From Deltaproteobacteria bacterium (GTDB taxonomy: Bacteria; Desulfobacterota_B; Binatia; UBA9968), in contig JACZQL010000020.1 of NCBI GenBank assembly GCA_022545745.1, forward strand, positions 1 through 9,478: DNA of 9,478 bases, given 5' to 3'. Made by a program: the position numbers and the translations under genes. Below the pieces are notes generated by a model, which saw nothing but the letters and a program-made list of their open reading frames with translations, was not told the DNA's origin and searched no databases. Position 1 is the first letter of the stretch, and each line of letters starts with the position of its first letter. Positions 5,994 through 8,896 of the stretch are shown here, in pieces.

Positions 5994-6020
5994 TCGATTT
6001 TGCGAATGGGGACACAAGCA

Positions 6021-7136
6021 ATGAGCAGGCAAACCAAAGAGGACAGGCGCGTCTCTCCATTGTCCTGGAAGGATATCCTGACGAGCCTCGAAGATGCCGT
6101 GGTGGTCATCGATCAACGCGGCAGGGTCTCCTTTTTAAACCAGGCCGCCGAAAGCCTGACGGGGATCTCTGCCCTCCAGATCCAAGGGCAACCCTACAGC
6201 CAGGTGTTCAAACGAAATCTATGGCTCATCGAAATGGTAGAGAAAAGCCAGCTCCCACTGCACAGCAGTACACGGGGAGAAGGCGACTTCGTCACCCAAC
6301 GATTGAGTCAATTCCCGGTGAGCTTGATGGTCTCACCCCTCCAGGATCAATTTGGGAAACAGGGGGGGAGCATTTTGCTCCTGCGTGACCTGACCTATCA
6401 GAAGCAGATGGAGGAACAGTTAAAGCGCTCAGACCGATTGGCCCTGTTGGGGACCCTCGCTGCGGGACTGGCCCATGAGATCAAGAATCCTTTAGCTGGA
6501 ATCAAAGGGGCCTCCCAACTGCTCAAGAAAGAGATGGCTCAGGAAACCTCACTGGTGGAATACACGGACATCATTATTCGCGAAGTCAATCGTATCGATC
6601 AGTTGATGGAACAACTGCTGGACCTGTCACGGCCTCCTAAGCTCCATCTCACTGCGTTGAACATTCACGAGATCCTGGACCATGTCCTCTTTCTCGAATA
6701 TCAGGCCATCTCAAGCGGCAAGGTAGTGGTCAACAAAAACTTCGACCCTAGCCTACCCCCAGTTCTCGGAGACCGAGACCGACTCATCCAGGTCTTTTTG
6801 AATCTGGTAAAAAATTCCCTTCAGGCCATGAAGGTCGAGGGGCAACTGACCATTACCACCCGAATGGAAACCGACTATCATATCCGAGAAGTGGGGAGCG
6901 GCGGAGGGAAATTCATCCGAGTCGGCATCGAGGACAATGGGCCGGGAATTAAAAAGGAACACCTCTCGCAAATCTTTTCCCCTTTCTTCACCACAAAGAG
7001 CAACGGTACCGGGCTTGGCCTGGCCATTTGTCATCGAATCATCAATGAGCATGGTGGTTTCATAGGGGTGGAGACCTTCGAGGGGGAAGGGGCAGCTTTT
7101 AGGATCTCATTGGTTGTCGCGGATGAAACGCCCTAG
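6021..7136 (+). CDS. ntrB: Soluble PAS-domain sensor histidine kinase, NtrB (GlnL) type
   Basis: This 371-residue cytoplasmic histidine kinase has no membrane segment. An N-terminal PAS domain (about 10-125, DILTSLEDAVVVIDQRGRVS to SILLLRDLT) is followed by a HisKA dimerisation domain with AHEIKNPLAGIKGA, the phosphorylated His at about 152. The ATPase domain carries NLVKNSLQAM (N box near 261), DNGPGI (G1 near 305), FSPFFTTK (F box) and GTGLGLAI (G2 near 329). HEIKNPLAGIKGASQLL is the NtrB-style H box, and the downstream gene encodes an NtrC-type regulator, so this is most likely its partner kinase. The ATG at 6021 has GGGGA 8 nt ahead; the ATG at 6006 or TTG at 6000 would add a few residues. 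The signal is unknown: nitrogen control through PII is typical of NtrB, but other NtrB-like kinases serve other pathways, so the symbol is tentative. Confidence 0.9.
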   Translation: MSRQTKEDRRVSPLSWKDILTSLEDAVVVIDQRGRVSFLNQAAESLTGISALQIQGQPYSQVFKRNLWLIEMVEKSQLPLHSSTRGEGDFVTQRLSQFPVSLMVSPLQDQFGKQGGSILLLRDLTYQKQMEEQLKRSDRLALLGTLAAGLAHEIKNPLAGIKGASQLLKKEMAQETSLVEYTDIIIREVNRIDQLMEQLLDLSRPPKLHLTALNIHEILDHVLFLEYQAISSGKVVVNKNFDPSLPPVLGDRDRLIQVFLNLVKNSLQAMKVEGQLTITTRMETDYHIREVGSGGGKFIRVGIEDNGPGIKKEHLSQIFSPFFTTKSNGTGLGLAICHRIINEHGGFIGVETFEGEGAAFRISLVVADETP

Positions 7137-7185
7137 GAGCACCGCTTGAAACGACCCCACTGGATTTATCCGCCTGCACAGAAGA

Positions 7186-7205
7186 CCATGGGCGTAAGCC
7201 CATGG
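7186..7205 (+). repeat. Element 2 5' terminal hairpin (8+4+8)
   Basis: CCATGGGC, loop GTAA, GCCCATGG: a perfect 8-bp stem with a GNRA-type loop. Confidence 0.8.
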
Positions 7206-7243
7206 ATGAATGCAACGGTCGGACCCTGCGAAGCTCGGCTCGC

Positions 7244-7302
7244 ACCGTGGAGTACTCCCCACGGTCGAAACGAGAGCCTCCGAGTGAGTACTTACTCCAC
7301 GG
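7244..7302 (+). repeat. Element 2 core: two competing inverted repeats
   Basis: CCGTGGAGTA (7245-7254) pairs perfectly with TACTCCACGG (7293-7302). Alternatively ACCGTGG (7244-7250) pairs perfectly with CCACGGT (7259-7265). The two share the left arm, so only one can form at a time. The longer pairing corresponds to the 12-bp repeat of element 1. Confidence 0.75.
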
Positions 7303-7320
7303 AGCAAACGAAGGAGGGTG

Positions 7321-7341
7321 CTTCGGCGGATTCCGCCGAAG
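7321..7341 (+). repeat. Element 2 9-bp hairpin
   Basis: CTTCGGCGG and CCGCCGAAG pair perfectly around ATT. Purine-rich sequence follows (GAAAGGAAGG counting from the last stem base), not a T tract, so it is not an intrinsic terminator on this strand. Element 1 has no counterpart. Confidence 0.75.
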
Positions 7342-7353
7342 AAAGGAAGGATA

Positions 7354-7373
7354 CCACGGGTGTAAACTCGTGG
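7354..7373 (+). repeat. Element 2 3' terminal hairpin (8+4+8)
   Basis: CCACGGGT, loop GTAA, ACTCGTGG: an 8-bp stem with one G-U if RNA. Compared with the hairpin at 7186-7205, the T-A pair at stem position 4 becomes C-G and the closing C-G becomes T-A, so pairing is kept while sequence changes. Confidence 0.8.
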
Positions 7374-7400
7374 AGGCTTCATTAGAGACCAAGAGACGGG

Positions 7401-7440
7401 ACCTTGACCTGTCAATCCAATTCGGGTCAAGGTGAATTGG
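7401..7440 (+). promoter_or_regulatory. Two mutually exclusive hairpins over the ntrC ribosome-binding region
   Basis: ACCTTGACC (7401-7409) pairs perfectly with GGTCAAGGT (7425-7433), covering the AAGG of a likely Shine-Dalgarno (AAGGTGA, 7429-7435, about 12 nt before the ATG). CCAATTC (7417-7423) pairs perfectly with GAATTGG (7434-7440), which would leave that AAGG in its loop. A second AAGG at 7443-7446 is too close to the ATG to be ideal. A nested pseudoknot is unlikely, as no bases link the two right arms. A DNA-level operator is an alternative. Confidence 0.45.
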
Positions 7441-7447
7441 GCAAGGT

Positions 7448-8896
7448 ATGGACCAAGGAAAGATCCTCGTTGTCGACGATGAAGAATCGCTACGTCTGGT
7501 TCTGAAGAAGGCCCTCGAAAGAGAGGGCTTTTGGGTCCAGACCGTTGAAAACGGTCAACTCGCCAAGGTCTGCCTCCACGACAATCCCTTCGACGTCTCC
7601 CTGGTAGATATCAGACTGCCGGATATCGATGGATTAACGCTCCTCAAGGAAGCCAAGAAAGAGGGACTCGATACCTCTTTCATTGTGATGACCGCTCAGA
7701 ACACCATGAAGAACGCCATCGAGGCCATGAAAGGGGGAGCCTTTGATTACATCACCAAGCCCTTCGACCTCGATGAGATGCTGTTGGTGGTCCAGCGTGC
7801 GCTAGAAAATCGAAAGTTGCGTCGGGATTTCCGCGAGCTCAAGGAGGAAGTCAAAAAGAAATACGAACCAAGGGGTAACATGATCGGCGAGAGCCCCGCC
7901 ATGCAGAAGGTCTTTAAGACCATCGGACAAGTGGTATCCGCTCGCGCCACCATCCTGATTCAGGGAGAGAGCGGCACCGGAAAAGAGCTGGTAGCAAAAA
8001 CCATCCATTATAACTCTCCTCGCTGGAACAAACCCTTCATTGCCGTCAACTGTGCCGCCATTCCCAAAGAGCTCCTGGAGAGCGAGTTCTTTGGCCATGA
8101 AAAGGGCTCCTTCACAGGGGCCTTGGAGCGCAGGATCGGGAAGTTTGAACTGGCTGAAGAGGGTACCCTCTTCCTCGATGAGATCGGTGAACTCCCCACG
8201 GATCTCCAGACCAAACTCTTGCGGGCCCTCCAAGAGGAGGAGTTCAGTCGAGTAGGCGGACGGGAGACACTGAAGACGGACGTACGCATCCTTGCCTCCA
8301 CAAACCAAGACTTGGAGAAGGCCGTGCGGGAGAAGAGATTTCGGGAAGATCTCTACTTCCGGTTGAAAGTCATCCCCATCCACCTCCCACTCCTCAGGGA
8401 ACGCAAGGGGGACATTGCCCTTTTAGTCGCCTTCTTTATCGAAAAGCATAATCGAGACATGGGGACTCAGATTTCCGGTGTCTCCCCGGAGGCCCTCAAA
8501 TTGCTGGAAGAATATCCATGGCCAGGCAACATCAGAGAGCTGGAGAACGTCATGATTCGCGCCGCGGTTCTTTCCCCGGGGACCATCCTGTTTCCCAAAG
8601 ATTTCAACCTGGTCACCGGGTCGGAAACGGCTCCCCCGGATTACGAAAACCTCTCCCTGGAAGAGATTATTCAGCGCAAGCTGGACGACTACTTCAACAG
8701 GACTCGTGGCGTGGACGTGGAAAACCTGTACTCCCTGGTGATCGAACGGGTGGAGCGGCCCTTGATCGAACTGACACTAAAGGCAACGCGAGGAAACCAG
8801 ATCCGTGCAGCCCAGATCCTCGGCATCAACCGCAACACGTTGCGCAAGAAGATCACCAATCTCCGTATCAGCGTCAAAGACTCTTATGAAGAGTAG
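7448..8896 (+). CDS. ntrC: Sigma54-dependent response regulator, NtrC (GlnG) type
   Basis: This 482-residue regulator switches on sigma54 promoters by ATP-driven remodelling of the polymerase closed complex. The receiver domain (about 4-120) shows the acidic pair D10/D11, phospho-acceptor D54 (SLVDIRLPD), T82 and K104. The AAA+ domain (about 145-380) has Walker A GESGTGKE (173-180), GSFTGA (220-225, the sigma54-contacting loop with Ser in place of the usual Ala), Walker B LFLDEIGE with D244/E245, and the FREDLYFRL arginine-finger region. The C-terminal Fis-type helix-turn-helix (about 440-475, ending GINRNTLRKKI) binds enhancer DNA. All key residues are present, so it should be active. It follows an NtrB-type kinase but is separated by 311 nt of structured DNA. 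Its end overlaps thiE by 11 nt. The exact regulon cannot be told from sequence; other NtrC-family members such as ZraR/HydG types are possible. Confidence 0.93.
   Translation: MDQGKILVVDDEESLRLVLKKALEREGFWVQTVENGQLAKVCLHDNPFDVSLVDIRLPDIDGLTLLKEAKKEGLDTSFIVMTAQNTMKNAIEAMKGGAFDYITKPFDLDEMLLVVQRALENRKLRRDFRELKEEVKKKYEPRGNMIGESPAMQKVFKTIGQVVSARATILIQGESGTGKELVAKTIHYNSPRWNKPFIAVNCAAIPKELLESEFFGHEKGSFTGALERRIGKFELAEEGTLFLDEIGELPTDLQTKLLRALQEEEFSRVGGRETLKTDVRILASTNQDLEKAVREKRFREDLYFRLKVIPIHLPLLRERKGDIALLVAFFIEKHNRDMGTQISGVSPEALKLLEEYPWPGNIRELENVMIRAAVLSPGTILFPKDFNLVTGSETAPPDYENLSLEEIIQRKLDDYFNRTRGVDVENLYSLVIERVERPLIELTLKATRGNQIRAAQILGINRNTLRKKITNLRISVKDSYEE

Follow-up and report, generated by a model that had tools for sequence, protein, structure and literature searches.

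The ntrB-ntrC spacer of the window (the whole 9,478-nt stretch of DNA analyzed here) contains a 213-nt element that is very probably non-autonomous and of the IS200/IS605 type (a PATE), moved in trans by a Y1 transposase encoded elsewhere. This reading follows from dispersed copies with fixed ends, a precise empty site, the absence of target duplication at that site, a length that leaves no room for a transposase, and covariation of guides with their targets. PATEs have been described from the archaeon Haloquadratum; the family to which the window copy belongs is a large one dispersed among environmental bacteria that displays the same side phenomena, and its natural target variants with matching guides test the guide rule of IS608 outside the laboratory.

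The copy between ntrB and ntrC

The spacer measures 311 nt with the element in it (Table 1). The left hairpin (HL), CCATGGGC-GTAA-GCCCATGG, is a perfect 8+4+8 structure, and the right hairpin (HR), CCACGGGT-GTAA-ACTCGTGG, has the same plan with one G-T pair. When G-T pairs are allowed, these are the only two 8+4+8 hairpins with a GTAA loop in the whole window, both of them inside the spacer; windows resampled from dinucleotide transitions held a mean of 0.0045 such hairpins, and none of 2,000 held two. The twin 20-nt hairpins around which the earlier note had drawn a segment therefore hold up, as do their outer bounds at 7186 and 7373. The extent of the segment has to be revised, since the mobile unit begins directly 3' of TTAT and comprises 213 nt instead of 188 nt.

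TABLE 1 Features of the element and its surroundings in the window
Feature	Position	Strand	Evidence
ntrB	6000-7136	+	gene name from the earlier note
Target tetranucleotide TTAT (CL) in the left flank; host site, outside the mobile unit	7166-7169	+	empty-site pair of a related copy; window letters
Mobile unit, 213 nt, 71 codons, stop-free in the translated frame	7170-7382	+	boundaries of copies in G277, G297, G298, and G304; empty site in G298
Left end CCGCC; together with target AT complementary to 7325-7331	7170-7174	+	pairing analysis across copies
Candidate left guide (GL) AAGA, 5' of the left hairpin	7182-7185	+	GL4-CL4 pairing in 75 of 82 complete copies
Left hairpin HL, 8+4+8, GTAA loop	7186-7205	+	hairpin scan; two-sided changes at 4 of 8 pairs in A2
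H2 region, arms ACCCTGC.. and ..GGAGGG, enlarged tip (long form)	7223-7318	+	fold; H2 helix paired in 97.4% of cells, 15 short relatives
Segment of ~66 nt specific to the long form, within the H2 tip; borders approximate	7239-7304	+	alignment with short copies; long forms elsewhere, e.g., P0001-P0005
H3 stem-loop; alternatively, its 5' arm paired to the left end	7320-7341	+	H3 alone, -14.8 kcal/mol; left-end duplex, -11.8 kcal/mol
GGCGGAT, an internal stretch complementary to ATCCGCC (7168-7174) by 7 of the 9 pairs that some other families have	7325-7331	+	sequence comparison
Candidate right guide (GR) GATA	7350-7353	+	GR4-CR4 pairing in 58 of 68 two-hairpin copies (no shuffle null)
Right hairpin HR, 8+4+8, GTAA loop, one G-T pair	7354-7373	+	window letters; alignment of copies
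Right cleavage site (CR) TCAT, last four bases of the unit	7379-7382	+	CR4 = CL4 in 78 of 82 complete copies
ntrC	7448-8896	+	gene name from the earlier note

Two further stem-loops lie between HL and HR, namely, H2 (arms at approximately 7223-7231 and 7309-7318) and H3, and the tip of H2 carries approximately 66 nt that are absent from short relatives. Folded as RNA, positions 7180-7380 reach -90.1 kcal/mol (z, -5.15; equaled by 0 of 200 shuffles); the z values of positions 7166-7382 folded as single-stranded DNA are -6.22 (plus strand) and -5.88 (minus strand). Positions 7000-7600 yielded no sigma-70-like promoter on either strand and no terminator-like site on the plus strand; the one terminator-like site of this interval (0.8 expected) is on the minus strand and corresponds to the left hairpin. 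The most likely role of the element at ntrBC is that of a passenger, one that makes the spacer longer. An Rfam search of the window gave 0 matches at the gathering score. A weak match to Clostridiales-2 at 7266-7349 (20.6 bits against a cutoff of 58.6) spans the 3' arm of H2 together with H3, and a distant mobile relative might be among the members of that RNA family.

A dispersed family and its insertion sites

Nucleotide searches (blastn) with positions 7137-7447 produced zero matches to plasmids, phages, and E. coli genomes, and the best match in the 27 genomes behind the first loci had an E value of 0.118, which is taken as chance; no viral contig contained NtrC or the element frame. The translated plus-strand frame at 7146-7382, used as a query against 5.8 billion proteins, matched 45 predicted proteins at E <= 10 and 39 at E <= 1e-3 (best, 4.6e-29), one of which is named Candidatus Binatia. 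The matching proteins are taken as read-throughs of other copies of the element, in the long form and in a short form with ~66 nt less, and some of them have different sequence on one side or both.

At E <= 1e-6, blastn recovered the element from 5 of 148 genomes in the class of a Candidatus Binatia genome; the closest to the window copy is G277 (91 to 93% identity in the right part and 83 to 86% in the left part for the better copies), followed by G304, G297, G298, and G305. A 22-nt left-end pattern, allowing up to 2 mismatches and with the reversed pattern as a control, was present at 50 places in these carriers (3 in G277, 29 in G297, 13 in G298, 3 in G304, and 2 in G305), compared with 1 for the control across all five. 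Across the phylum, the same pattern occurred at 139 places in 41 of 395 genomes (control, 18 places in 17 genomes), totals in which single two-mismatch matches may be chance; the matches are concentrated in G059 (26), G505 (16), G038 (15), and G529 (14). Another phylum, that of the Acidobacteria MAG G014, was at background, with 8 places in 8 of 396 genomes and 14 for the control. A shorter pattern of 18 nt with at most 1 mismatch matched 17 of the 148 class genomes, including several inspected loci that are not elements, and copies recognizable by eye are present in nine class genomes (G277, G285, G286, G287, G297, G298, G299, G304, and G305).

In total, 154 distinct left-end matches were collected. 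Both ends could be defined in 82 of them, which range from 42 to 239 nt and are too short to encode a transposase; the other 72 have no right end by the pattern (being degenerate, chance matches, or copies whose end was missed) and are excluded from the counts over 82 copies. Window-like copies are designated subfamily A (TTAT target, GL mostly AAGA, CR TCAT), and subfamily B comprises copies with TTAC, GL mostly AAAG or AAGG, and CR CCAC. The window copy and the G277 copies L121 and L126 (147 nt) have lengths that are multiples of three and are stop-free in one frame; four A copies of G297 (150 nt) contain stops in the frame that is stop-free in the window copy.

All 28 relatives with an NtrC 65 to 76% identical to that of the window lack an element between ntrB and ntrC. 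Their spacers range from -4 to 91 nt in the 27 computed cases; for the 28th (L091), the computed value of -46 is a frame-extension artifact, and the actual spacer of the same gene pair is 2 nt. Insertion could be followed at base level in one occupied/empty pair. The occupied site in G297 reads ..GTGTCTTTAT, element, TGACTTTGG.., and the matching empty site in G298 reads ..GTGTCTTTATTGACTTTGG.., such that exactly 150 nt was gained after TTAT and nothing was duplicated. The gene downstream of this copy is presumably rplU, judged from its start. At this pair of loci (L198 1501-1654 and L258), the copy in G297 adjoins a TTGACT resembling a -35 box, which was kept after insertion because the unit and the target both end in AT.

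Copies elsewhere sit in many different flanks. Similar flanks were seen for L194 and L205, one copy from G297 and one from G298, and some insertions may therefore predate the split of these genomes. By eye, P0042, from another contig, has the window's own right flank (..SLETKRGDLDLSIQFGSR; window 7377-7435) beside a short form, so that both forms seem to be present at the ntrC site; the ~66-nt segment of the long form was apparently acquired or lost at that very site. Among 36 copies with both ends, 15 keep a reading frame open through the empty junction, with minima of 40 and 25 codons. NCBIfam models found no matches in five read-through proteins, and Pfam models applied to eight of them gave only sub-cutoff similarities, to Rhomboid in P0020 and to UPF0150, HicB-like, and WYL in P0031. 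These Pfam matches, all below the cutoff and on only two proteins, were therefore not taken to prove insertion inside genes.

Ends, guides, and the source of the transposase

Copies of the family start directly 3' of TTAT or TTAC and end in TCAT or CCAC. The 24 copies with both ends in the carrier genomes comprise 10 at TTAT, ending in TCAT (9) or TCTT (1), and 14 at TTAC, ending in CCAC (13) or TCAC (1). Over the complete copies, the target is TTAT or TTAC in 68 of 82, as found with a search pattern that favors TTAY, and TCAT in 7. The two ends, CCKCC.. and ..CTYCAY, are by eye not inverted repeats of each other. Watson-Crick pairing of GL4 with CL4 (75 of 82) compares with a within-genome shuffle mean of 55.7, and identity of CR4 with CL4 (78 of 82) compares with a mean of 54.8, neither count being reached in any of 10,000 shuffles; the copies are related rather than independent, and the shuffles overstate their independence. 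The search patterns favor A/G at GL4 and C/T at CL4 and CR4 and do not impose these associations. GR4 forms a Watson-Crick pair with CR4 in 58 of the 68 two-hairpin copies that have a clear right hairpin (Table 1), and the commonest CR/GR combinations are CCAC/GGTG (23), TCAT/GATA (11), and CCAT/GGTA (6). The rule is broken between GL4 and CL4 in 7 of 82 complete copies and between CR4 and CL4 in 4, two of which (L365 and L368) probably had the right end placed too early by the pattern. In G059, the target TCAT accompanies the guide GAAA in 5 of 6 matches, a combination reminiscent of the right-end TCAA/GAAT pair of IS608; elsewhere TCAT is found with GAGA, AAGA, or AAAA.

By analogy with IS608, a Y1 (HUH) transposase from elsewhere would bind both hairpins while the strand is single-stranded. 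Pairing of AAGA with TTAT (left flank) and of GATA with TCAT (right end) would set the cuts, and the unit would then exit as a single-stranded circle and re-enter 3' of another TTAT. In the parts of PMC5934647 used here, IS608 inserts 3' of TTAC, with TTAC as CL and AAAG as GL and with TCAA as CR and GAAT as GR. Many copies of subfamily B have the identical CL and GL, and the window family shares with IS608 and IS200/IS605 elements, as presented in parts of PMC5934647 and PMC8266576, a tetranucleotide retained in the left flank, a guide 5' of the left hairpin, and a candidate guide 5' of the right one. It differs from the IS608 of those parts in having neither tnpA nor tnpB, in a CR that is mostly CCAC, TCAT, or CCAT and not TCAA, and, as seen in the window copy, in hairpins without the unpaired stem T described there. 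The proposal in the earlier note of a non-autonomous IS200/IS605 member is well supported by the multiple copies 3' of TTAT or TTAC, the precise empty site, the near-terminal hairpins in the same orientation, and the IS608-like covariation.

The PATEs of Haloquadratum walsbyi, in the parts of PMC3119063 considered, have no terminal inverted repeats, carry near-terminal palindromes, cause no target duplication, and are too short for a transposase; their boundaries resemble those of IS605-type transposons, their copies are divergent, and they include core-deleted, terminal-only forms and small mobile repeats inside the near-terminal palindromes. As far as those parts extend, the window family has in common with them the short length, the near-terminal palindromes, the lack of terminal inverted repeats and of target duplication (the latter in one pair), the divergence among copies, the terminal-only forms, and the small repeats nested in palindromes. 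In contrast to the PATEs presented there, it is found in bacteria, mostly uses TTAT or TTAC (68 of 82), and has conserved internal helices, and some of its copies contain an internal complement of the target and left end that goes unmentioned in the same parts of PMC3119063. A PATE-like sequence of Halanaerobium hydrogeniformans, covered in part of PMC7290912, is also bacterial and consists of ends only, without a transposase; that sequence is a single copy from a resident IS605, whereas the window family is multicopy and has no recognized parent. A classical MITE of a DDE transposon was rejected, as there are no terminal inverted repeats and no target duplication in the one occupied/empty pair.

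Y1_Tnp genes are present in all five carrier genomes. They are also present in 80 of the 148 class genomes, compared with 5 of 148 that have a blastn match to the element, and the presence of a Y1 gene is therefore no discriminator. None of 38 Y1 loci scanned with a stricter signature had element ends, and none of 30 loci in an overlapping set, from incomplete draft genomes, had both ends; L151, missed by the stricter scan, has one stretch resembling a right end, which lies ~1.4 kb upstream of its Y1 gene. The tnpA or tnpB gene with matching ends that the earlier note had proposed to look for did not turn up in the Y1 loci scanned. Likewise, no IS605-type transposon with similar ends was found in the same genome among these loci of draft assemblies, which weakens the filing as a PATE without excluding it. 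The IS200-like loci L148 and L153 of G298 were considered as a parent and rejected for having their own, different hairpins.

Which enzyme acts on the family is a separate matter, and it is possible, if not what we favor, that a RAYT (TnpA-REP) takes the place of a classical IS200/IS605 TnpA; this would involve the same single-strand chemistry and is compatible with most of the PATE reading. Of 47 Y1_Tnp matches in the five carriers, 27 are open frames of 280 to 340 amino acids, and G304, whose only Y1 match is one of these long frames, has three left-end matches. We assume these long Y1 genes to be RAYTs. REPs and TnpA-REP are described in PMC8266576, in the relevant parts of which REPs carry a GTAG tag. 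REPs, REPtrons, and REPINs (PMC8266576, PMC3116915, and PMC3733652, each in part) resemble the window family in their short hairpins with a 5' tetranucleotide, their dispersed copies, and, as proposed for the window family, the action of a Y1 protein in trans. Against a RAYT, the GTAG tag that serves as the criterion for E. coli-type REPs is absent from the window copy, which has AAGA and GATA, and in the family the left tetranucleotides are mostly AAGA, AAAG, or AAGG and the right ones GGTG, GATA, or GGTA. A pair of equally oriented hairpins whose left and right cleavage sites differ corresponds to the plan of IS200/IS605, and relative to the REPs in those partial sources, the family has two different ends in direct orientation and a conserved, complex interior.

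Elements with tnpB typically carry structured RNA at their right end, and the earlier note had offered as an option a solo omega-RNA, possibly adopted as a regulatory RNA. A solo omega-RNA or IS605 remnant, whose internal helices would form the scaffold of a TnpB guide RNA working in trans, might account for the helices P1, P2, HL, H2, and HR being kept with compensating changes, but it is very improbable given that no Rfam family is matched at the gathering score, the best weak match being Clostridiales-2. The TnpB zinc-ribbon (PF07282) is over the cutoff in only one of the five carriers, all drafts (G298; below the cutoff in G305 and with no match in G277, G297, or G304), and no tnpB is present in cis in the window, as judged by eye from the ORF list. 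An ancestral regulatory leader of ntrC, which the coding-strand location in the ntrB-ntrC spacer would suit, can be dismissed almost entirely, since the segment is missing from all 28 relatives and its copies occupy many different flanks. The case that the earlier note had set against its own reading, a single-copy segment constant at ntrC as an ancestral leader, is contradicted by the same relatives and by a multicopy family.

Interior helices, internal complement, and nested hairpins

RNAalifold analysis of 15 copies without nested inserts or deletions predicted 44 pairs, 13 of which have two-sided changes (8.6 in shuffles; 2 of 500 as high). In these short copies, 94.8% of cells pair, compared with a shuffle mean of 88.1% (0 of 500 as high) and with 28 to 45% in slid controls; further pair types were not above shuffles in this alignment (27 versus 27.8; 408 of 500 as high). 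An exhaustive scan for helices of 6 to 8 pairs with at least 90% of cells paired identified one long-range helix with compensating changes, formed by the left end, including target AY, and the 5' arm of H3. The minimum-energy folds of the window copy form H3 and not this pairing.

An internal 9-mer complementary to the target and left end was found in 19 copies of families other than that of the window, with the targets TTAC, TTAT, TCAT, and TTTT. The target-end and internal sequences are TTACCCGCC/GGCGGGTAA in 6 copies (TTAC/GTAA), TTATCCGCC/GGCGGATAA in 8 (TTAT/ATAA), TCATCCGCC/GGCGGATGA in 4 (TCAT/ATGA), and TTTTCCGCC/GGCGGAAAA in 1 (TTTT/AAAA). Seven of these 9 pairs are present in the window copy, and the A and B families, which are closest to it, are without the full 9-mer. 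Exact four-base agreement between target and internal complement was observed in 19 of 62 copies, compared with 8.9 under a global null (0 of 10,000) and with a mean of 16.0 in within-genome shuffles, 416 of 10,000 of which reach 19. A graded agreement, a statistic chosen after the exact-match result, amounted to 212 over 70 copies (within-genome null, 203.6; 0 of 10,000) and, when the window, G277, G297, G298, and G304 were left out, to 130 over 38 copies (null, 122.8; 4 of 10,000), 25 of these 38 matching at 4 of 4 bases. Odd or mismatched targets are found in L366, L403, L409, L410, L422, and L428.

A tentative and rather doubtful interpretation is that the internal 9-mer represents a second target code, in which GGCGG and the reverse complement of the target would span the insertion junction (the 3' end of the target plus CCGCC) and serve the single-stranded intermediate as a splint. 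Changed together with the 5' guide, it would allow retargeting, and the window copy, with its incomplete pairing, would be a degenerate user. The splint function is proposed from the sequences of the copies; if functional, the internal complement would add a second layer of target recognition to single-strand transposition. No description of an internal target complement, or of this element family, was found in the literature searched, which consisted mostly of open-access papers.

Several copies contain smaller hairpins within their own. A hairpin of 38 to 42 nt, CCCGGCCTTYGYAGCC...GGAGTRGGC, was matched 14 times inside HL, H2, HR, or a fused hairpin (L145, L180, L184, L193, L194, L204, L205, L207, L210, L220, L221, L224, L294, and L304); it follows a G in 13 of 14 cases and precedes TRA in 7 and AAG in 5, and is reminiscent of the small mobile repeats that lie within the PATEs of Haloquadratum. 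A second mini-hairpin is nested in H2 in four copies (L122, L128, L145, and L192), in one of them reversed, and a third is nested in H3 in L141, L211, and L212, where TCGG precedes the insert and recurs at its end. Single-hairpin forms of 42 to 57 nt, in which the left end is joined to the right end, make up 9 of the 82 complete copies (L187, L227, L360, L362, L367, L378, L386, L415, and L438), and five of these are exactly 42 nt long.
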